DNA of 34,170 nucleotides. It comes from a virus. The notes beneath the pieces are model-generated. The model saw only the letters and a program-made list of their open reading frames with translations, had not been told where the DNA came from and made no database searches. The stretch covers positions 1 to 34,170 of the IMG/VR virus record IMGVR_UViG_3300046009_006291; one strand, written 5' to 3'. A program made the position numbers and the translations under genes. This document shows positions 2,772 through 34,002 of the stretch, piece by piece (positions within the stretch are counted from its first letter, which is position 1; each line of letters starts with the position of its first letter).

Positions 2772-3385
2772 TGTTGTTCTATTGTTGGTGTGATAGTATT
2801 GCCGTTAATGACATCTCTAAACAACCTATTTGCTAAAAATGTAGTTTTATCTAAGTATTCTTTTTGTTCTGCTGCTGTAGGTTGGTAAAATTGCCCAAAC
2901 CGCCTAACTAAATCTTTGTAAATCTTTGCGCTACGTTGTGTAGTAATACCCATCAATACAGCGTTTTCACCTTTAGCCAATTGAAAAGCCCTTACCATTT
3001 TACCACTATACTTTAAATCAATAAAAGCAGTTTGTAGCCCTTGTATATCACGTAATTCTTTGTATCCATTACGCAAAAACATTGTTTTCTTTTGTACTGT
3101 ACGCTTTCTAGTTTTACCCCCTACCTTATACTTTATTGTGCTACTAACTGTATCTGTAGGGCTAAATACGCCTTTATTAATAAACTGTTCTTTTGTTACT
3201 GAAATTGGCTTTGTTGAATAATTACCTATTTGCTCTAAACTTGTATTTGCTCCATCTTGAACTACACGCCTTTTAATTTCACGCAACATTTTAGTAGCTG
3301 GTGAAAGTATAACTAAGTCTGTTATATCCCCACCAACAAATGTATATAACTCATTCAACCTATCCGCATATTCCTTTACAGTCAT
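2768..3385 (-). CDS. Putative head-tail connector / tail-completion protein (HK97 gp10-like)
   Basis: 205 residues and strongly basic in the middle (GGKTRKRTVQKK at about residues 89-100), followed by a helix-rich C-terminal half with many Lys and Arg (LKYSGKMVRAFQLAKGE). The size, basic loop and helical content fit the loose pattern of HK97 gp10 or virion-morphogenesis proteins. It starts one base inside the stop of the 327-residue gene and overlaps the following gene by 4 bases, so it is co-translated with the capsid-distal structural genes. The family call is a judgement from pattern and gene order and needs a profile search. Confidence 0.4.
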   Translation of the reverse strand: MTVKEYADRLNELYTFVGGDITDLVILSPATKMLREIKRRVVQDGANTSLEQIGNYSTKPISVTKEQFINKGVFSPTDTVSSTIKYKVGGKTRKRTVQKKTMFLRNGYKELRDIQGLQTAFIDLKYSGKMVRAFQLAKGENAVLMGITTQRSAKIYKDLVRRFGQFYQPTAAEQKEYLDKTTFLANRLFRDVINGNTITPTIEQQ

Positions 3386-4368
3386 TATATGTTAGTTTGG
3401 TATCTGATACCCCTACAATTTAAACAGTCATCTTGGTATTGCCTTAGTATATCCATTATACCACCACTAATCATAGCGTTAAATTTAGTAGCGTATTTGT
3501 TTTGCAAGTCGGGTATAATAACCTTCATTATTTCCTCTCTGTTGTATGTAGTCCAATTATTAAACCGATTGCTTTTATATTGCTCCTCATAAAACAACTC
3601 TTGCATTTTGTACCACAACAATTCACCAGTAAAAGCGGAAGTTAAATCGCAAATCAAATTATCATAATAGCAATCACAAGTAAATTGCACGTTCATGCCG
3701 TACCCTTCTTTCCTTACAAATGCCTCACCGTCATACCCTTGCACTGTAGCACAATCATTCTTAGCACTACCTCCACAACCTACACCACAAATAATATCAC
3801 TAGAACTAAAAGCAAGAGAAGTATTATCAATCAATACCGATATTTGGGAACTAACAGCAATGTAAGGAGTAGGTAAGGTGTGTATCTGCTTAGTATTAGC
3901 AACAAACGTAGTTGGGTATGATGTGGTAATAGGAACACCATTATCGAAATCAGCAATTACTATCTCACCTTCTCCACCTACAAGCGTGTATGTTTCAACG
4001 GAAACGATGCGTAATTGCCTCATATTGCCTCTTTGATACCTTGTATTAGCATGGATAGTTTGCCCCCTAAAACCAGCATAAAAACCGTTACCTTTAGCAA
4101 CATTAAACTTAGCACTATCATACACACGATTAGTAATAGTAGTTGCTATTCTATTACTTTGGAGAAATCCGTTAAAATCTGTCCGTAAAATACGAATAGC
4201 ATTTTGCTTTACAACTTCCAACATTTCAAGCATGTTGGCGTATTGCTCGGTAGTAACCTTAGATGCGTTTAGCGGTGACATACCACTAGCACCCATAAGA
4301 GTAAAGCCCGATAAACTCGGCTCGGTATCGCAAATACCAATAGTAACTATATTATCTATACACGCCAT
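3385..4368 (-). CDS. Structural protein of unknown role downstream of the capsid gene
   Basis: 327 residues. The N-terminus (MACIDNIVTIG) is followed by a helical stretch with TTEQYANMLEMLEVVKQNAIRI at about 39-60, a beta-rich middle, and a cysteine-dense segment (about residues 190-245, with CGVGCGG and CDCYYDNLICD). The C-terminus carries a CLNC pair. It could be a neck, head-completion or head-decoration protein. A TAAATTTG box lies at 4376-4383, just upstream of the ATG at 4368, directly after the capsid terminator. It could restart transcription, but it is only eight bases from the start codon, so it is uncertain. Family not recognised. Confidence 0.6.
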   Translation of the reverse strand: MACIDNIVTIGICDTEPSLSGFTLMGASGMSPLNASKVTTEQYANMLEMLEVVKQNAIRILRTDFNGFLQSNRIATTITNRVYDSAKFNVAKGNGFYAGFRGQTIHANTRYQRGNMRQLRIVSVETYTLVGGEGEIVIADFDNGVPITTSYPTTFVANTKQIHTLPTPYIAVSSQISVLIDNTSLAFSSSDIICGVGCGGSAKNDCATVQGYDGEAFVRKEGYGMNVQFTCDCYYDNLICDLTSAFTGELLWYKMQELFYEEQYKSNRFNNWTTYNREEIMKVIIPDLQNKYATKFNAMISGGIMDILRQYQDDCLNCRGIRYQTNI

Positions 4369-4443: not shown

Positions 4444-5832
4444 TTATGCAAATGTGATAGTAATATCATTGTTGATTGACCCTGCAAGCGCAGTAAATCC
4501 AGTGTATCTGATATTAGAACCACTTACGGTAAATATGTTTTGACCGTTGTACGCTGCACCCATCAATGCTGCCAACTCTGTACGGTTTGTAGCTACTGCG
4601 GCAGGTGCGCTTGTAAAGTCACCTACTGTTATACTGCTAACCAATAGAGGGAATACATCGCCCGGATTCCAGTTAAACGTACTTGTACTTGGGTTTGGCG
4701 AAGGTGCGTCACCTGTTGGGCAAGCTGGTAACACAATAGGACAAGTTTTATAAGCCATGATACCGTTTATGCCTTGCTCGTTACAAGTTTGTATAGGAGT
4801 ATAGAACATATCATACTTCAATGTCAATTTCCAATCGAACGCACCATTTTTGCTACCATCAACGCATATTGTACGGTGTACATCAAGGTCGAATATTACA
4901 GGATAACCAGGCATTACAAATGAACCTAACAGCACACTTTCGTTACCGTTTTTGAACATTCTATCCATTGTATCACCGTCAAGCGAAGTAATATCAGTAG
5001 CCCAACGACCTGCGTTCTCAGATACCATTACCAGTTTTACCGCACGAGGGTCATAAGCTATGATTGTTTCAGCATCGCCTGGCTCATAACTTGTAATGTT
5101 ATCAAGGTTCACATCAAAGTACAGATTGTTTATACCTGCTTTGGTGAAATCTTGACCCAAAAACGTATTTTGAGTAGCCATACCGAAAAAGTTACGGAAG
5201 GTAAACACCTGACCGCTACCTATGATATATGGGTTTCTGTATGCCAAACGTGCAAATTCTTGCTTAATAGTATTCATACCTATTGGGGTAATCATACCAT
5301 CAGTAGTATTTACAAGGTTGATTCTGTCACCATATTCGCTACCACCTAAGTGAACACCTTTGTTTGCTAATAGGTCTGTAGTTAGGCGTGTTGCCCATGC
5401 TTGAACCAATGCACCAACACCCGACATTATCTGCTGTATAGCGTGTGCAGTAAAGCCCCATCCACCATCTACATAACGAATATCGTTAGGGTACAAACGT
5501 TGTGGAACGGTCTGTATTGTTTGGCTAATAGCAAACTGCAACTGTATAGGTGCTTGCACTTCACCAGCCTCACAAATTGAATTGCTTGGGCTGTCTGCAA
5601 CGACATCGCAACGTTGAGGATAGAATGACATCTTTACGCCACGTATCATACCACGCATTCCATCGTAAAGAAACTCATCTGCCATTAAGACATTATTTTC
5701 TGCACTTGAAGCGATAAGAGCATCGATAACCTCCATTCTAGGAGTGTTATATTCCATGTTCATTATAAACTTCATAAATTCCCGACCCGATTGGGTAAAG
5801 CCATTTGAACTAGCGGCTTGAGGTACTGCCAT
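4444..5832 (-). CDS. Major capsid protein (HK97-type, inferred)
   Basis: 462 residues. Residues of about 1-355 have the character of a major capsid protein: an N-terminal helical arm (GREFMKFIMNMEYNTPRMEV), a long mixed alpha/beta body, and a C-terminal beta region. After a Pro/Ser-rich linker (about 374-382, PTGDAPSPNPST) comes a separate segment of about 80 residues with an immunoglobulin-like, Ala/Thr/Asn-rich beta character that may decorate the capsid surface. It follows the scaffold-like gene, the normal order. It is the only gene here with a terminator immediately upstream, its own -7/-33 promoter, a leader of about 120 nt and a terminator downstream, as expected for the most abundant virion protein. 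The HK97 fold itself is inferred, not seen. Confidence 0.82.
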   Translation of the reverse strand: MAVPQAASSNGFTQSGREFMKFIMNMEYNTPRMEVIDALIASSAENNVLMADEFLYDGMRGMIRGVKMSFYPQRCDVVADSPSNSICEAGEVQAPIQLQFAISQTIQTVPQRLYPNDIRYVDGGWGFTAHAIQQIMSGVGALVQAWATRLTTDLLANKGVHLGGSEYGDRINLVNTTDGMITPIGMNTIKQEFARLAYRNPYIIGSGQVFTFRNFFGMATQNTFLGQDFTKAGINNLYFDVNLDNITSYEPGDAETIIAYDPRAVKLVMVSENAGRWATDITSLDGDTMDRMFKNGNESVLLGSFVMPGYPVIFDLDVHRTICVDGSKNGAFDWKLTLKYDMFYTPIQTCNEQGINGIMAYKTCPIVLPACPTGDAPSPNPSTSTFNWNPGDVFPLLVSSITVGDFTSAPAAVATNRTELAALMGAAYNGQNIFTVSGSNIRYTGFTALAGSINNDITITFA

Positions 5833-6045: not shown

Positions 6046-6882
6046 TTAGTCTTTATACATGCCTTTTAATGTTTCCATTTGAGCGTGTGGGCTTTTACCG
6101 CTTGGGGCTGGTGTATTTGCTGTAGTGCTTAAACTAGCTGCTTTACTTGCTGCGGTAAGTGCGTTTACATCACTTGTATTATCTTTCCACAATCCCAATT
6201 CAGTATAGTGACCTTTAAGAAAATCATTTACAGTTATGTTGGCTGTTTTGCTACTGTTAAGCAGTCTTGTACTTGGGTCATTGCGGTCATATATTTCAAT
6301 GTCGCTACCATCTTCGTTTAACTTCAATACCCCTTTTCTTTCCAACTCAGATAAAAAAGCCTCTGCCGCTTTATCCTTATTCATGTCAACTGGTAGCCCT
6401 GTAGCGTTTTTGTGCGCCTTTGCAAGTACATCAACCAATGATTTACGTGTTAGCTGCCCTGTTACTTCGTTGTGCTTTTTTTCCCAATCGCTTGTGATAC
6501 GTGTAACTTCTTCACTGTGTGCTTTTAGTATTTCGTCTATTTTCTTTTGCTGTGACTTTTCGGTATCGGTTGTATTTAACCTATAATGTTCAATAGCTTT
6601 TTCAAGTATTGCATCACTTTCCAATCCGTTAAGGTCTGCAAGTGGCACACCAAATTTAGATGATATACTTTTACGGTAAGCGTCATTTACTTTACGTGAA
6701 GCCTCGCCATGAATTTCAGTTTTTAGCAACTGGCGAATGATTGGGGTTCTTGTTCCGTCAACTGCTGATAACAATGTATCCTCATTGTAATCTGAATCAG
6801 TGTCATTTTCCACAAGTTCCACACTTTGGTTGGTTAGCTTGGAAAACAGGTCTGTTAGTTGCTTTGTTGTTAATTTTGCCAT
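6046..6882 (-). CDS. Capsid scaffolding-like protein
   Basis: 278 residues, highly charged and almost wholly helical. Residues of about 95-175 are a Glu/Lys-rich probable coiled coil (TDTEKSQQKKIDEILKAHSE and on), and the C-terminus is Ser/Thr/Ala/Pro-rich and probably disordered (STTANTPAPSGKSPH) before a basic end. This is the typical composition of phage scaffolding proteins, and it lies directly upstream of the capsid gene. No protease domain was seen. The segment before the ATG (CAATCATAACTCA on the minus strand) is a 13-base exact match to the leader of the probable tail-tube gene. Confidence 0.65.
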   Translation of the reverse strand: MAKLTTKQLTDLFSKLTNQSVELVENDTDSDYNEDTLLSAVDGTRTPIIRQLLKTEIHGEASRKVNDAYRKSISSKFGVPLADLNGLESDAILEKAIEHYRLNTTDTEKSQQKKIDEILKAHSEEVTRITSDWEKKHNEVTGQLTRKSLVDVLAKAHKNATGLPVDMNKDKAAEAFLSELERKGVLKLNEDGSDIEIYDRNDPSTRLLNSSKTANITVNDFLKGHYTELGLWKDNTSDVNALTAASKAASLSTTANTPAPSGKSPHAQMETLKGMYKD

Positions 6883-7499: not shown

Positions 7500-9320
7500 T
7501 TAAACTACTTCTTTTACTTGTACCGTTTCTTTAGGAATTTGAGGTACTGGCATAGCGTCAAATAGTGTTTTCACTTCAGCCTCAATCATATCAAAATCAG
7601 CATTTAAAAACCACTTTTCGCCACGCTTATTAACAATTCTGTTTAGTAGCATTGGTAAGTTATCCGACATTCTAATTTGCTCAATAGATGCCACACCGTT
7701 ATTGATAGCAATAGTTTTATCTGCTGGTGTTGATACGCTGTAAGGGTCTATGTAGTTAATAAACTTTGACTTCTTAACCATCAACTCATTACCACCATAA
7801 ACCTTATCAACATAGCTTTCAACAATGCTTTGTTTTACGTATTCGGGTATTTGGCTGTCTGTAGCCTCTTTATATTCTGAAAGTAAATCAAACTCGGTTT
7901 TAAGGTCGAATGACGTAGGTGGTGCAAATGTGTAATTCGGCAAATTTACGCTTACCGTATCATTAGATTTGGATATATTGCGCAATGACAAAATACTAAT
8001 TAGTATAGGCTCAATCAAACCATACCACATACCATCACTACACGTTTTATACCACATTCTTTCACCATCCCTATCTATCTCTTTTGCAACTCCGCTTTGT
8101 GCCTCTTTAATGTATTGTTGGTGTAGTGCATCTTTTATGTTCTCATAAATTGAGTCTTTGTGTTTAACCAAAAATTCATTTACGGCAACATCAGGATTAA
8201 TGATTTTTATCAAATCATCTTTCATTAATTCAGACGGAACTATAAGCCAATCCCCTGGGTTTATTGATTGCAATTTAGTACCATTACATGAACGGCATGT
8301 ACTAATACTATATGCACTTTTATCGCAGTTACAATTTTGGTCGGGTCTATTGTTACAAGTGCTGCAAAATTGAGTATAACCCACACCTTCGCAATCTTTA
8401 CATTCGGGTGAAGCTGCTATTATAAATGGGTGTGCCGCCTCTTTATTAACCATTTGCACCGCACTTTGCGCACCTACAAATTCATCACAAAAAGGTATTG
8501 CAGCCTGTATGTAGCTATCATAAAAACCATGACTATTCCAAACACCACCAGCAGTATGTACAGGCAATCTACCTAGCATGTGGGCGTAATAACCTTGCCT
8601 ACCATCCATGTGGTTAAAGTCACCTTTATTACTACGTTCAAATCGCAAATATGCAGCAGGGTTAATATACCATGCGTACATATCATTAGTCCCCTCATGA
8701 TATATTAATTCACTTTCGGAACTATAACGAATACGCCTTGACGGAACGTGTATTATTTCAACCTCAACCTTTTTATTGCTTTGGTCTTTAGCTGCTTTTT
8801 TAGGTCTTACTATAAACTTGCTATTGGGGTCTTCACATATTGTTTTGAAGTGCCAAAATATAAACTCAACTAGGTTTTTGCCGTCAAAGTTTTTACCCCA
8901 AATATAGTCGTTGTCTTCTTTGTCATCTACAAATAAAGTGTACTTGTTTTCAGCAGAAATTACCGCTTTACACTTATCAATAGCTTTGGTTAGTGGGGCT
9001 TGCTGGTGGGGCTTATACAATGATTTGCGTAACTCCCTTGTAGCGTGTGGTTCTCTAGGGTGCATACCAAATAAACGGTCAAATACTATGTCATATTCGG
9101 GGTATATCCAGTAGAAAGGATATATCATACTTTCACCCAAAATAACGGAACGTGCCTTGCTATTACCTTCATAACGTAGAGGGTAATAAGCAGGGCATAC
9201 ACCTGTAGTATGTACAGAAATATTGTAGTAAATGTTTTTCCATTTACTTAGAATGGCAAGGGGGTCTAATTTCTCCTTGCCATTCAGTATCTCTGTGACC
9301 TTTTTTATTATTTCTGACAT
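7500..9320 (-). CDS. Portal protein with inserted cysteine-rich (zinc-type) segment
   Basis: 606 residues, in the size range of siphophage portals, and the only large helical protein next to scaffold and capsid. The N-terminal 290 residues and residues 360-590 have portal-like alpha/beta and long-helix character. Between them, residues 307-345 contain C307-x2-C310, C319-x2-C322, C330-x-C332 and C342-x2-C345. Two of these pairs are in CxxCxG form (CKDCEG, CRSCNG), like the zinc-binding repeats of DnaJ. I know of no such insertion in textbook portals. The gene is followed by the small head genes and preceded by the tail-tube candidate. The portal assignment rests on size, position and overall pattern. 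Confidence 0.65.
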   Translation of the reverse strand: MSEIIKKVTEILNGKEKLDPLAILSKWKNIYYNISVHTTGVCPAYYPLRYEGNSKARSVILGESMIYPFYWIYPEYDIVFDRLFGMHPREPHATRELRKSLYKPHQQAPLTKAIDKCKAVISAENKYTLFVDDKEDNDYIWGKNFDGKNLVEFIFWHFKTICEDPNSKFIVRPKKAAKDQSNKKVEVEIIHVPSRRIRYSSESELIYHEGTNDMYAWYINPAAYLRFERSNKGDFNHMDGRQGYYAHMLGRLPVHTAGGVWNSHGFYDSYIQAAIPFCDEFVGAQSAVQMVNKEAAHPFIIAASPECKDCEGVGYTQFCSTCNNRPDQNCNCDKSAYSISTCRSCNGTKLQSINPGDWLIVPSELMKDDLIKIINPDVAVNEFLVKHKDSIYENIKDALHQQYIKEAQSGVAKEIDRDGERMWYKTCSDGMWYGLIEPILISILSLRNISKSNDTVSVNLPNYTFAPPTSFDLKTEFDLLSEYKEATDSQIPEYVKQSIVESYVDKVYGGNELMVKKSKFINYIDPYSVSTPADKTIAINNGVASIEQIRMSDNLPMLLNRIVNKRGEKWFLNADFDMIEAEVKTLFDAMPVPQIPKETVQVKEVV

Positions 9321-10025: not shown

Positions 10026-11162
10026 TTATGGTCTATCAATTGTTACTAAATTATTTGGGGATATTTCACCGCAACAACCAACAAAAGTTACATAATATCT
10101 TATCTGTGTTTGGCTTGGCGAAATATTTAAGTTTGGCGAAATTGGGTAGTCTATTGTTAATGGGAACGAACCGCCACAAGGTATAATGTTGCTGTTGTTA
10201 ACTCCTATATCATTACCCCCTGATAGTAATAAGTTGTTTTGATTCCATGAAAAGTTAGCTTGATGACAACAACCTCCACAATCTGCATAAATAGCCCTTA
10301 AATAATAAACAGAACCAACAAATACAATACTTAATGTTGGTGGTATGGTAGGTCCATCACAATCGGTAGTTAAACTAATAGTTCTAGTAGTTACTAATCC
10401 ACAACAATCCGTTACAGATACATTAAATCGCACAAGTTGGTTAACTCCTACCGATGTCGGGAATACTTGAAATGACCATGTACCGTCAGTTGTTATTGTA
10501 GTTGTAGCGGTATCGGAATAAACAGATGTCGGTGCTGTTTGTGTGAAGTTTGCATTTAGCAAACATGGTGCGGTAACTCCTGAAAAGTCAACATCTATAA
10601 AAAATGTTCTTGTTGTTTCGCACGTTCCCTCTTGCCTTAGTGTAATACTATCTATTGTTGGTGAAACGCAATCTTCATTAGTTACATACCCCTCAACGCA
10701 TGGTGTTCCGCTTGGGTCATCCATTAAAGTAACCACATAATAAATATCAGTCCTACCGCCTATCAATGTTGTTTTACGCCCCAAATCAGACGATACAAAA
10801 GTTAAATCAGCAAGCGTATTAATTGCGTATGTAGCGGAAAAATATCCGATACTTTCAACGTAAATAAAGAATGGGCAAAAAGTCCAACCCGATAAATCAA
10901 ACTCAATGTTAAAGTAAAAAAACACATCGTTTGGAGTGCTAATAAATGCTTGCAAAAACGGTGGGCATTCACACGCACTAATAGTAAAACAATGCACTGG
11001 CGTTTCTGCACCATCAATAAACATTTCATAGTCACCAGCCGTTGTTATTGCAGGGTCAAATACTTCGTTACCATGCGTAGCACTATAAACAGTTGTACCT
11101 ACACTGTTTTTTATCACTACATCAAATGTGCCACCTAAAGGGGCTGTTATTTGTAAATTCAT
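10026..11162 (-). CDS. Cysteine-rich beta-sandwich virion protein, probably tail tip or fibre
   Basis: 378 residues, nearly all beta-prone and rich in Thr, Ser, Val and Asn, with many cysteines in pairs (CECPP at about 69-73, CGGCC at about 294-298, DCCG, GCCGE). The sequence splits into about four units of 80-100 residues that look like immunoglobulin-like domains (for example FFIDVDFSGV..., TTTITTDGTWSFQVFPTS). No signal peptide. Its ATG overlaps the preceding Fn3-like gene by one base, and it ends a series of three beta-rich genes after the tail hub. An adhesive or decorating tail-tip component is likely; the exact role is unknown. Confidence 0.5.
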   Translation of the reverse strand: MNLQITAPLGGTFDVVIKNSVGTTVYSATHGNEVFDPAITTAGDYEMFIDGAETPVHCFTISACECPPFLQAFISTPNDVFFYFNIEFDLSGWTFCPFFIYVESIGYFSATYAINTLADLTFVSSDLGRKTTLIGGRTDIYYVVTLMDDPSGTPCVEGYVTNEDCVSPTIDSITLRQEGTCETTRTFFIDVDFSGVTAPCLLNANFTQTAPTSVYSDTATTTITTDGTWSFQVFPTSVGVNQLVRFNVSVTDCCGLVTTRTISLTTDCDGPTIPPTLSIVFVGSVYYLRAIYADCGGCCHQANFSWNQNNLLLSGGNDIGVNNSNIIPCGGSFPLTIDYPISPNLNISPSQTQIRYYVTFVGCCGEISPNNLVTIDRP

Positions 11163-24353: not shown

Positions 24354-25784
24354 TTAAATTCTAAATCGTTTACTATGGTCTTCTACTTCTCTACCTTGAT
24401 TGTGAACTATTTTCATTTGTTTTATTGGTTTTTCGGGTGGTAATGCTGCGATATTGTTAATTGTGATACCTTTAAGATAAGTGGAGCGTACGTGTTCATT
24501 ATAGTATGTCTGAAAGAAATAACGCATACTATCGAAATAATCCATCTTGTTTTCGCCTCTATCTTTCAATAGCTGACTACCTAATTTATGGTTAATGTCA
24601 ACCTTTGCCTTACGTATATCAGCTATTAAATTCTTACAACATGGGTCAATGGTTATGTCATACTTACCAAACATTACATTACATAACATTCTACTGTCAA
24701 AGTGTTCAAGGTTTGAACTATTCAAATGTAATTGAGCGTTGGATAAATGTAACAATGACTGTATCATCTGGTATGCTGTCTGATTACGCCCTATATCCTC
24801 ATTTTGACCGCTTCTATCACCTGTGACATAAAATATGTGATTAGGGTAAGATGTCTTAATTTGGGCGCATAATTCGTCTATCTTCAAATGTCCACCGAAC
24901 TCATCAATACACCTACACCAACCACCATTGCCAGCAACATTAGGCGAACGTTGCCAAACTGTACAACTCATCGGGTTTGCATTAAAGTCAAATGACAGGT
25001 ATATTGGGAACGTTTCTATCACTTGAACTGGCTTAATGTGTACATCCTCATCCATTGCATAAATCCAAGGGTGTTCATTCATATTTACATCCCAATTACC
25101 CAATACAAACACCTCATATTGCAAGCGAGGTAAGTTATTCAATGATTCCATATAATCCTTATCCTCTGTAATATATGGGTTTTCATGTATCAATGCTGAT
25201 ATGTACTGAAAGTCGGGCGGTAAAGTACCATTTTTAGCCCTATCGTAAAACGTTGTCTTTACCCAACCCCATGATGGGTTACAAGTAAGTCCTATAAATG
25301 GTTTTGGTTTCTTGCATCCTACTGGCGGTATGTGTGACCCTGCACGCTCAATAGCTTTGTAAAATGATAGTTCCTGTAATTCGTTCGCCTCCTCTAATAA
25401 AAAGCCGTTAACCTCAAGACCTCTCCACCTGTTTAACTCCTTATCATCATCGTAGTTCTCAGCAAAGAATATAATCTGCGAACCGTTGTTAAATGTTACT
25501 GTTTGTGTGTCTTGATTGTACGACCTTACAAAGTTAGTCGGCACTAACTTATTAAATGATACAATAGTATTACGCTTTAAATCGGGCAAGGATTTGCGGA
25601 CTACCGCCCATCGGCTATATGGGTACACCTTACACAATAAAATGAACGTACCAAGCCCGCAGAACGTTTTGCCGCCACGAATACCACCACCATACAGCGC
25701 ATATTTTGTGACCTTATCGAATGCAAATTCAATAAACTTTTGTTGCTTTGGGAACGGCTCAAATAGTACTACTTTATTCTGCAT
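24354..25784 (-). CDS. terL: Large terminase subunit (TerL)
   Basis: 476 residues. The ATPase Walker A is GGGIRGGKT (32-40), followed by a typical helix; the Walker B-like strand is GFLLEEANEL (127-136). The C-terminal nuclease has its first acidic site in LSFDFNANP (263-271), a second in YVTGDRSGQN (319-328), and a third in KMDYFDSMRYFF near 437-449. The protein packages DNA into the prohead through the portal and cuts concatemers. Its ATG overlaps the small-subunit stop by one base (TAATG). Length and motif order are normal. Confidence 0.95.
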   Translation of the reverse strand: MQNKVVLFEPFPKQQKFIEFAFDKVTKYALYGGGIRGGKTFCGLGTFILLCKVYPYSRWAVVRKSLPDLKRNTIVSFNKLVPTNFVRSYNQDTQTVTFNNGSQIIFFAENYDDDKELNRWRGLEVNGFLLEEANELQELSFYKAIERAGSHIPPVGCKKPKPFIGLTCNPSWGWVKTTFYDRAKNGTLPPDFQYISALIHENPYITEDKDYMESLNNLPRLQYEVFVLGNWDVNMNEHPWIYAMDEDVHIKPVQVIETFPIYLSFDFNANPMSCTVWQRSPNVAGNGGWCRCIDEFGGHLKIDELCAQIKTSYPNHIFYVTGDRSGQNEDIGRNQTAYQMIQSLLHLSNAQLHLNSSNLEHFDSRMLCNVMFGKYDITIDPCCKNLIADIRKAKVDINHKLGSQLLKDRGENKMDYFDSMRYFFQTYYNEHVRSTYLKGITINNIAALPPEKPIKQMKIVHNQGREVEDHSKRFRI

Positions 25785-31491: not shown

Positions 31492-34002
31492 CTAAAAAGG
31501 TACTAAATCGGGTGCTGAATTATCATTTTTTTGCTCTCCATTAAATAACTTATATCTGTCAAGTATGCCATTTTCCTTCATTACTACTTGTTTTTCAAAG
31601 TGTATTTCGTGTTTTTGACAGTAGCTTTCTAGTGCTGAATTAAGCCGAATAGATGATAACTTATACAATTTGTTTCCCCCATTATCAGAATAAAAGGTAT
31701 CGTAGGTGTTATTGAACGCTTTAACCTGCACTTTTTTTATAAGTTTCCATTCTGTAATATTTTCCTCTATGAACTGCAAAGTTAATAATCCATACTCCTG
31801 TTCAAATTGTTTTTGCCATCCACCTTCGGTTAATTGGGGGGCTGTAAGCCTCATGACCTTAAGCCATTGTTGAATAGATGCAAGGATAATGTTATCATAG
31901 GCTTGCCAATCTTCGGTAGTCCAATCGGTAGGAAACATCTTTCCAAAGTGAGTATTTACGCCCCCTGCTTTAGTAAAAAAGTCAGTAAATTCTATCGGGA
32001 TAATTCTACGCCTTAACCCACCGTCTGACACCTCATAACTGTAATTTGTGCTTACTAATAACTTTGGCATATCGCCCACATCAACAGTACTTATATTTTT
32101 GAATAGCTTTTTGTTGATACCGTTACCTGATGACAATTCTTTAAGGAATAGAAAGTCAAACTTTTTCGGCACATCTGATATAGATAGCACCTTTTCGTAG
32201 TCCCATGACTGTAAAAAATCCTTATCTAAAACAACTTGGCTACCGGGTAGGTTCTTAACACTTGTAGCGTATTTAAGCATATTTGAAAATATGTTTTTAC
32301 CGCTACCACCACCCGATTTAGGGTCGGGGCATTGCTCAACTAATACTACTATATATGCGTCTGATTCGTCTTTAAATTCATGGCATAAATAGCCAATACA
32401 TTGCAATACATGCGGTGTAACGCTAACTGATAGGTCAAGATATTTGTAATATAGTGATTGCTTATGGCTGTTATCTGTTGTTACTGTTAGGTCACGTAGT
32501 TGTATTTTGTTTTCCCATATCAATTTATTGGTGGGTAGAGCTGAGTAGGGTAGCACTTCTACACCATCTTTATCAATAGTCGCATAGCAATTATTATAGA
32601 ATTTATACGATAGGTGTTTAGTGGGGGTCAGTATGACTGATGTATCTAATATGGGTAGGCTGGCAATTATGTGCTTACCCGACTTCTGTATAAATTCATC
32701 TAAGGCATTAAAAACAGTTTCGTATTCGTCTGCATCTTCGATATGTATATATGCTTTAAGTTCATCAAAGTATGTACGTGCATCGGTACGACATATCTTA
32801 TATCCTTGTATTTTGGTTACATCTTCTTTATGTAGCCTATACCCTAAACCATGCGATACGGTGTACAATTTTTCTCGGCTGATGTATGTGCCGCCCTTGT
32901 CGTTTATTGCCCAAAATATGCCATGTGGGTGCGTTTCTGTAGCCTTTATTAGTATGTCCTGTACAAACTGCTTAGCCTCATCTGATATGTTAGCAGGTGT
33001 AGGGGTATTATAGGCTGTAGCGGTCTTAATTATCCTTTGTTCGTGTTCATGTTTTATTTTACCATATCCACTATCTACTAAGTGACGGTATAGTTTTTTG
33101 TAGTCCCCACCGAATTGTAAAGTACATAGTACTGCTGCTGGTGTTAACCATTTGCCCGCCTCAAATTCTGTTGATGTAGTGAAAAAATAGTATAATCGGT
33201 AATCCTTACGAAATGTTACAGATACGCCCCCTTCATTTCTGTTAGGTCGTGTCCATCTTCTGTACATATCGTGGTCATTAAATATTTTATAACCATTAGC
33301 TGTTAATATGTCCTCTGCTGCTATGCTACCGTTAAAATGGTCAAATGGGTTTTCATCGTAGTAATCGGTCTGTTTTTTAGTCGGCTTGTAGCTTACTTCT
33401 GCTTTGATGCGTTGGTTGTAGCTGATGCATAAATTAATCAAGCTATCACGCTCTGATTGTGTGATTAGTGGTATGTTAGCACCCTGATGTATTGAGTATC
33501 CCATTGAGGGGGGTGCGAGTGCATAACCACCTTCTCCCCTTGTTTCAATGCCACACTCTTTAACATCTGCTTTCCATGCTAATTTTTTATTTCCTTGCGC
33601 TTTACCGTCTGCAATCCTGTATAGTATATGATAGCCTCCTGACGGTGTTTTGTGTATGCGTAACCTGTACCATAGTTCGGGGTATATTTGGCGTATATCG
33701 CTGAAAAGTCTACCATCTATACCGTTCCAGTGCTTACAGTCTATGTCTATTATTTCTAAGTTGCCCGATACGCTACCGCATACCATAGCAATAGCGGTGG
33801 TATTATGTTTATCCATTTCATACCATAACGCCTCTTTGCTGATAATGGTTGATTGGTATTGTTTCCATCCTGAATAGGCTACTTTAGCAGGTATGATAGT
33901 CCCATCTTGTTTTGTTTCTGCTTTGTCACGTACTGGTACAATGGATATACCAGCAGATAATAATTCCTGTACTTGCCCGAATACGGCAGATAGTTCTTGC
34001 AT
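31492..34002 (-). CDS. Primase-helicase: AEP-type primase/polymerase fused to SF3 helicase
   Basis: 836 residues. The N-terminal primase-polymerase part has the acidic site LEIIDIDCKHW (82-92, DID), SGGYHILYR (121-129) and ETRGEGGYALAPPS (153-166), in the order of Prim-Pol enzymes. The C-terminal helicase has the Walker A SGGGSGKN (563-570), a following KVLSISDVPKK strand, VSTNYSYEVSD and an arginine finger GGLRRRI (661-667), as in D5/SF3 proteins of the DUF5906 type. It primes and unwinds phage DNA. No DNA polymerase gene is in the window. The GTTACA-repeat region lies beyond its 3' end, and inverted repeats precede its start. Confidence 0.88.
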   Translation of the reverse strand: MQELSAVFGQVQELLSAGISIVPVRDKAETKQDGTIIPAKVAYSGWKQYQSTIISKEALWYEMDKHNTTAIAMVCGSVSGNLEIIDIDCKHWNGIDGRLFSDIRQIYPELWYRLRIHKTPSGGYHILYRIADGKAQGNKKLAWKADVKECGIETRGEGGYALAPPSMGYSIHQGANIPLITQSERDSLINLCISYNQRIKAEVSYKPTKKQTDYYDENPFDHFNGSIAAEDILTANGYKIFNDHDMYRRWTRPNRNEGGVSVTFRKDYRLYYFFTTSTEFEAGKWLTPAAVLCTLQFGGDYKKLYRHLVDSGYGKIKHEHEQRIIKTATAYNTPTPANISDEAKQFVQDILIKATETHPHGIFWAINDKGGTYISREKLYTVSHGLGYRLHKEDVTKIQGYKICRTDARTYFDELKAYIHIEDADEYETVFNALDEFIQKSGKHIIASLPILDTSVILTPTKHLSYKFYNNCYATIDKDGVEVLPYSALPTNKLIWENKIQLRDLTVTTDNSHKQSLYYKYLDLSVSVTPHVLQCIGYLCHEFKDESDAYIVVLVEQCPDPKSGGGSGKNIFSNMLKYATSVKNLPGSQVVLDKDFLQSWDYEKVLSISDVPKKFDFLFLKELSSGNGINKKLFKNISTVDVGDMPKLLVSTNYSYEVSDGGLRRRIIPIEFTDFFTKAGGVNTHFGKMFPTDWTTEDWQAYDNIILASIQQWLKVMRLTAPQLTEGGWQKQFEQEYGLLTLQFIEENITEWKLIKKVQVKAFNNTYDTFYSDNGGNKLYKLSSIRLNSALESYCQKHEIHFEKQVVMKENGILDRYKLFNGEQKNDNSAPDLVPF

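Follow-up and report, generated by a model that had tools for sequence, protein, structure and literature searches.

The part of the described portals that bears most on this report is the clip. For SPP1 gp6, the account in PMC9701221 assigns residues 55-62, 81-87, 256-280 and 327-346 to the stem and residues 281-326 to the clip, attributes the most extensive inter-subunit contacts to the clip, and places there a pocket used first by the terminase and afterwards by the gp15 C-terminus. For JBD30, PMC11445458 describes an adaptor C-terminus that threads between adjacent clips, and a procapsid in which the clip touches the shell. In the virions described in PMC11445458, PMC12886913 and PMC9701221, the clip is exterior and contacts the adaptor.

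A portal clip with zinc was not reported in the part of the literature covered, which includes portions of PMC11445458, PMC12886913, PMC3853051, PMC9038755 and PMC9701221; the zinc passage found in PMC11445458 concerns a T5 tape-measure protein, not a portal. Two described proteins come near. The stopper of phage 812 has a four-cysteine zinc loop in a head-tail connector protein, but it is not a portal, and the loop is reported in PMC12886913 as conserved only in Herelleviridae. The HMO-2011-type DNA polymerase, as described in PMC9038755, likewise carries two CxxCxGxG motifs inside an unrelated phage protein, but it is a replication enzyme.

Here we analyze a virus record of 34,170 bases (IMG/VR class linear), which is called the window throughout. 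Its portal has eight cysteines in a short segment, and we consider it fairly probable that this segment belongs to a portal clip built round a zinc knuckle, with one site shared by the whole family and a second gained in the window.

Results

Identification of the portal

The ORF at 7500-9320 is a phage portal, the ring protein for DNA loading, and the identification is sound. Its sole match among the PHROGs families is phrog_7376 (portal protein) with an E-value of 1.6e-7, while a Pfam scan of this ORF did not find a portal family. Bacteroides phage BF486P1 has a portal with a phrog_7376 match of E 2.8e-196 and 71% identity to the portal annotated in B124-14. When the window portal was searched against the named phages by tblastn, no relative was found at E 0.01, three Bacteroides phages matching at only E 2-6. 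A peptide-pattern search of viral_contigs and genome_contigs returned no close relatives of it.

Relatives of the family were gathered from named phages, viral contigs, genome contigs and genomes, with scan patterns placed mainly outside the cysteine region, although YEQDCDYI, from a set of six, includes a cluster cysteine. A scripted search recovered a portal ORF from every one of the 168 loci. Among these ORFs 115 were distinct, and dropping an 83-residue fragment (L078) left 114, which were aligned with the window protein to give 115 rows. The rows are distinct, but many are close kin, some nearly identical, and they do not count as independent; the 114 relatives were found via family seeds and selected by a profile that includes the cysteines. 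Among 395 genomes from the phylum of G013 (Bacteroides salyersiae), two carried a portal of this kind, one being already known. Every portal recovered in a scan with that of 80alpha (L084-L163) had 96-100% identity to the query, and the set was left unused.

Membership of the window protein in this family is independent of the cysteines because the match persists when the protein is masked. Without the window, a profile from 46 relatives recovers the window protein at E 1e-13, and the family profile still does so at E 4.2e-6 when residues 297-352 are masked (both at Z 1000). With all cysteines masked, recovery is at E 6.6e-6 (Z 1000) via residues 469-535 only, as the match then disappears around residues 157-400. 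The best of 200 shuffled controls for the family profile reached 3.2 bits. Identity between the window portal and the 46 relatives (set A4) is 12-20%; set A5 comprises 45 of the 46, L064 being excluded because it holds an X. In a tree of 60 portals, the window branch measures 6.18 changes per column, and because it is so long, the nearest kin of the window is unsure.

Table 1 Positions and assignment basis of the features discussed
Feature	Position	Strand	Basis
Portal protein	7500..9320	(-)	606 aa, ATG start; divergent phrog_7376 member (B40-8/B124-14 MP3 type)
Predicted long helix, taken as stem helix alpha3	8433..8507	(-)	Residues 272-296, AF2 secondary structure
Predicted clip region	8190..8432	(-)	Residues 297-377, between stem helices; models and SPP1 gp6 limits (PMC9701221)
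Predicted long helix, taken as stem helix alpha5	8100..8189	(-)	Residues 378-407, AF2 secondary structure
Eight-cysteine cluster	8286..8402	(-)	Residues 307-345; outer CxxC pairs shared by the family, inner pairs CSTC and CNC confined to the window
Probable adaptor	3385..4368	(-)	327 aa, phrog_8189 relative (E 1e-4), ends ...CLNCRGIRYQTNI
Adaptor C-terminal CxxC (CLNC)	3415..3426	(-)	Residues 315-318; alignment of 11 adaptors
Probable major capsid protein	4444..5832	(-)	By position only
Probable scaffold	6046..6882	(-)	By position, same place as BF486P1 scaffold-type gene; no convincing family match
Terminase large subunit	24354..25784	(-)	phrog_2, E 5.8e-28; ~15 kb from portal

Cysteines of the window portal and its relatives

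The window portal has 13 cysteines, at residues 42, 117, 162, 278, 307, 310, 319, 322, 330, 332, 342, 345 and 427. Eight of them fall within 39 positions, which occurred in 5 of 200,000 trials when 13 cysteines were placed randomly in 606 positions. They form the pairs C307KDC310EGVG, C319STC322, C330NC332 and C342RSC345NG, spaced as C-x2-C-x8-C-x2-C-x7-C-x1-C-x9-C-x2-C. The first pair is a strict CxxCxGxG, the last is CxxCxG, the second is CxxC, and the third is CxC.

None of the 115 aligned portals lacks a cysteine at any of the outer four positions (C307, C310, C342 and C345). Of all columns with at least 97% conservation, a full 115/115 is reached by these four and P253 alone. They are present from Bacteroides phage B124-14 to phages of Polaribacter, Pseudanabaena and Rhodobacteraceae, and on this alignment they are an invariant signature of the family members examined. 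The full CxxCxGxG pattern occurs at the first motif in 67/115 rows and at the second in 76/115. The first two cysteines are 2 apart in 81/115 rows (the window included), 4 apart in 3, and 8-10 apart in 31.

The inner pairs, CSTC and CNC, occur in 1/115 portals, that of the window, and none of the 114 relatives has a cysteine between the second and third outer cysteines. As far as the aligned portals go, the inner four are so far unique to the window. The loop from C310 to C342 has 31 residues in the window versus 10-25 in the 114 relatives.

Portals of the phrog_7376 type (Bacteroides phages BF486P1, B40-8 and B124-14 MP3, Parabacteroides phage PDS1, and chain A of PDB entry 9WWA) are of the same family as the window portal and carry four cysteines in matching alignment columns. 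They differ in having four cysteines instead of eight and, in some rows, a first pair spaced more widely than in the window. The portals of Polaribacter phage P12002L, Pseudanabaena phage Pan5 and Rhodobacteraceae phage LS06 are like that of the window in their 2-residue CxxC, often CxxCxGxG, but they lack the inner pairs and have a shorter loop between the outer ones. The unrelated portals HK97 gp3, with four scattered cysteines, and 80alpha, with zero, have no such pairs.

These counts divide what the first-pass annotation had claimed. Its four cysteine pairs within residues 307-345, two of them CxxCxG, are there as described (CKDC, CSTC, CNC and CRSC, with CxxCxG in CKDC and CRSC). Its term insertion suits the longer loop, but not the outer pairs, which are common to the whole portal family. 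Likewise, its statement that such pairs are not usual in portals agrees with HK97 gp3 and 80alpha, but not with this family. It had also proposed beforehand to look for relatives that lack the cysteines, and the answer is split: the outer four are retained throughout, whereas the inner four are missing from 114 of 114 relatives.

Position of the cluster in predicted structures

An AF2 model of the full window portal was of modest confidence, with a pLDDT of 67 and a pTM of 0.55. Foldseek matched it to eight chains at E <=0.001, all of them portal or neck entries, with the best E of 1e-5 to cyanophage A-1(L). VIA-align gave Z 14.4 against cyanophage Pan3 and 13.6 against SPP1, the Z maximum being over residues 1-468. 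In this model, the cysteines are located between two long helices, with short strands following the first helix.

A model of the fragment 258-412, also of modest confidence (pLDDT 72.7, pTM 0.38), has its elements in the same order as the full model. Its helix-clip-helix span aligned by VIA-align to the portals of T7 (267-360), phi29 (131-228), HFTV1 (216-313) and T4 (254-379) at Z 2.8-4.1, but all Z values of the fragment are <5, and unrelated chains score equal or higher, up to 4.8. VIA-align output omits some folds, and absence from it is uninformative. Foldseek on the fragment model gave nothing under E 0.001, the best E being 0.7.

Because a profile comparison of the window family with the HK97 gp3 and 80alpha portals gave no match by which to place the clip, the clip assignment rests on the models. 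By these, the cysteine cluster is likely positioned in the portal clip.

Likeness to zinc-binding domains

Taken together, the outer and inner pairs of the window follow the order in which the DnaJ cysteine-rich domain nests its eight cysteines. In DnaJ, this domain has eight cysteines as four nested pairs, and the cysteine motifs pair 1 with 4 and 2 with 3. The cysteine part of the fragment model aligned to E. coli DnaJ (1EXK) at Z 2.8 over 50 residues at 3.6 A, to DnaJA2 at Z 3.5, to BSD2 at Z 2.4-2.5, and to UvrA at Z 2.6-3.1. A profile of the fragment searched against PDB gave, after 9WWA, only sub-threshold matches at E 0.02 and up; these include many zinc binders, namely lambda Q, bL33, DnaJ, UvrA and LIM domains.

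PF00684, the Pfam family of the DnaJ cysteine-rich domain, did not match the window fragment, while 7/9 scanned relatives matched it below the cut-off (best 22.5 bits vs 32.7). The likeness thus consists of the nested pairs and the weak fold match. The differences are that PF00684 has four CxxCxGxG repeats and the window one strict repeat, that the third pair of the window is CxC, and that the protein is a different one. A Pfam scan of the whole window protein at E up to 1 found no J domain.

Although each single fold or profile match is weak, we interpret the cluster as a clip zinc knuckle that probably holds zinc. The authors of 9WWA may already have seen metal at the outer site.

The adaptor and its C-terminal tail

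Downstream of the portal gene lies the probable adaptor gene, with a weak match to phrog_8189. The BF486P1 member of phrog_8189 matches 9WWA chain I, named "adaptor protein", at E 1.3e-136. The portal in that entry, chain A, belongs to the phrog_7376-type family and has a 112-residue stretch identical to the portals of PDS1, C1_85S2P and PD491P1. The match of the window adaptor to the adaptor family is weak at 18.4 bits; it is 18.1 without the last 20 residues and 10.3 with cysteines masked, and the best of 200 shuffles reached 6.6.

A CxxC is found within the last 16 residues of 10/11 aligned adaptors (the window and nine related phages), LS06 being the exception. The tails are CLNCRGIRYQTNI in the window, CLTCRNGGIRFKST in BF486P1, and CLSCNNRGVKYRTT in PDS1. 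Most of the aligned adaptors have a second, mid-protein cysteine pair. The C-terminal CxxC is absent from adaptor candidates of three other loci (L061, L062 and L063). In this sample, the CxxC tail accompanies portals of the B40-8 and Flavobacterium types and that of the window, but not those of the LS06 type.

Other genes of the window

The probable scaffold gene, placed where BF486P1 has its scaffold-type gene, gave a weak pairwise match (E 0.001, 38 aligned residues). The probable major capsid gene has no convincing family match and no match to the capsid gene of BF486P1. Next to the portal gene, 10026-11162 (-) encodes a cysteine-rich protein of 378 residues with no family match and no relatives in viral_contigs. 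The long protein at 31492-34002 (-) matches in its first part the DNA polymerase/primase family phrog_19930 at E 3.1e-46.

The ~15 kb between the terminase large subunit and portal genes hold a glycosyltransferase, a methyltransferase, HNH and large unassigned genes, unlike B124-14, where terminase large subunit and portal are near neighbours. Twelve contigs with related terminases, many of them fragments, gave no portal match to the window protein. A phrog_7376 search of ten of these contigs and an A1 search of nine found no portal. The terminases of L002, L003 and L005 are 99-100% identical to that of the window, and these contigs had no portal match, probably because they are too short.

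Discussion

We propose that C307, C310, C342 and C345, which would be the first and fourth motifs of a DnaJ-like nest, would bind one zinc, and that C319, C322, C330 and C332 would bind a second one in the window lineage only. The pairing of motif 1 with 4 and 2 with 3 is borrowed from DnaJ, and for the inner cysteines it rests on one sequence because no relative has the inner pairs. The knuckle would sit between the stem helices, roughly at the place of the alpha4 segment of the SPP1 gp6 clip and the loop preceding it. By analogy with SPP1 and JBD30, it could stiffen the clip ring and shape the pocket that takes the terminase first and the adaptor's C-terminal tail afterwards.

The first-pass annotation had called this a portal-like protein with a DnaJ-like, zinc-type cysteine cluster. 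The first half is supported by phrog_7376, the family profile and the fold matches to solved portals; the second gains support from the eight cysteines in nested DnaJ order with the outer four invariant, as read from the alignment. It had also suggested that the cluster might stabilise the ring or bind the neck or scaffold. The ring and the neck fit the modelled clip, but the scaffold fits less well, as in the virions described the clip is exterior and contacts the adaptor, even if it touches the shell in the JBD30 procapsid; by the same analogy, docking of terminase and adaptor would be the likelier role.

The outer four cysteines could alone bind metal, the inner CSTC and CNC being part of a lineage-specific loop that makes no second site. 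The occurrence of the inner pairs in a single portal, the CxC form of the third pair, and the variable length of the loop in relatives (10 to 25 residues) are consistent with this, but two extra pairs nested in DnaJ order would be difficult to attribute to drift. We regard this one-site arrangement as somewhat unlikely, if a serious possibility.

A different arrangement brings in the adaptor, whose CxxC tail would join the portal cysteines or displace a ligand, so that metal aids the change from motor to neck. The tail is carried by nearly all aligned adaptors, and docking of the adaptor C-terminus at the clip is described for SPP1 (PMC9701221) and JBD30 (PMC11445458). On the other hand, the outer portal site already has its full set of four ligands, and the mid-protein pair of most adaptors could form a site of their own. 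Moreover, the adaptor CxxC is missing in phages with short-CxxC portals (LS06 and the three candidate loci), and because it is missing with LS06-type portals, a shared site is disfavoured as a general rule. Such sharing is quite unlikely. For the window lineage in particular, a complete two-zinc DnaJ-type clip domain might act together with the adaptor cysteine tail in a metal-dependent hand-over from motor to neck, which we hold to be improbable still.

Phage assembly occurs in the reducing cytoplasm, which counts against disulphides within or between adjacent clips that would lock the virion after release. The many cysteines and the position of the clip exterior to the capsid in the virions described (PMC11445458, PMC12886913) would suit such disulphides, but the CxxCxGxG spacing that recurs at both motifs is of the zinc type, and we set this very improbable explanation aside. 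Also set aside, as hardly credible, is a chaperone domain that recruits or mimics host DnaJ: the DnaJ-like cysteine order speaks for it, as do HMO-2011-type phages, which have part of a DnaJ domain in a different essential protein (PMC9038755), but the window portal lacks a J domain in the Pfam scan and a match to PF00684, and conservation is limited to the outer half of the pattern.

If the favoured reading of a clip built round a zinc knuckle is true, the metal site would give a direct handle, by chelation or cysteine changes, on the hand-over from motor to neck. The cysteine signature would also help to recognise divergent portals such as that of the window, which Pfam leaves unnamed.
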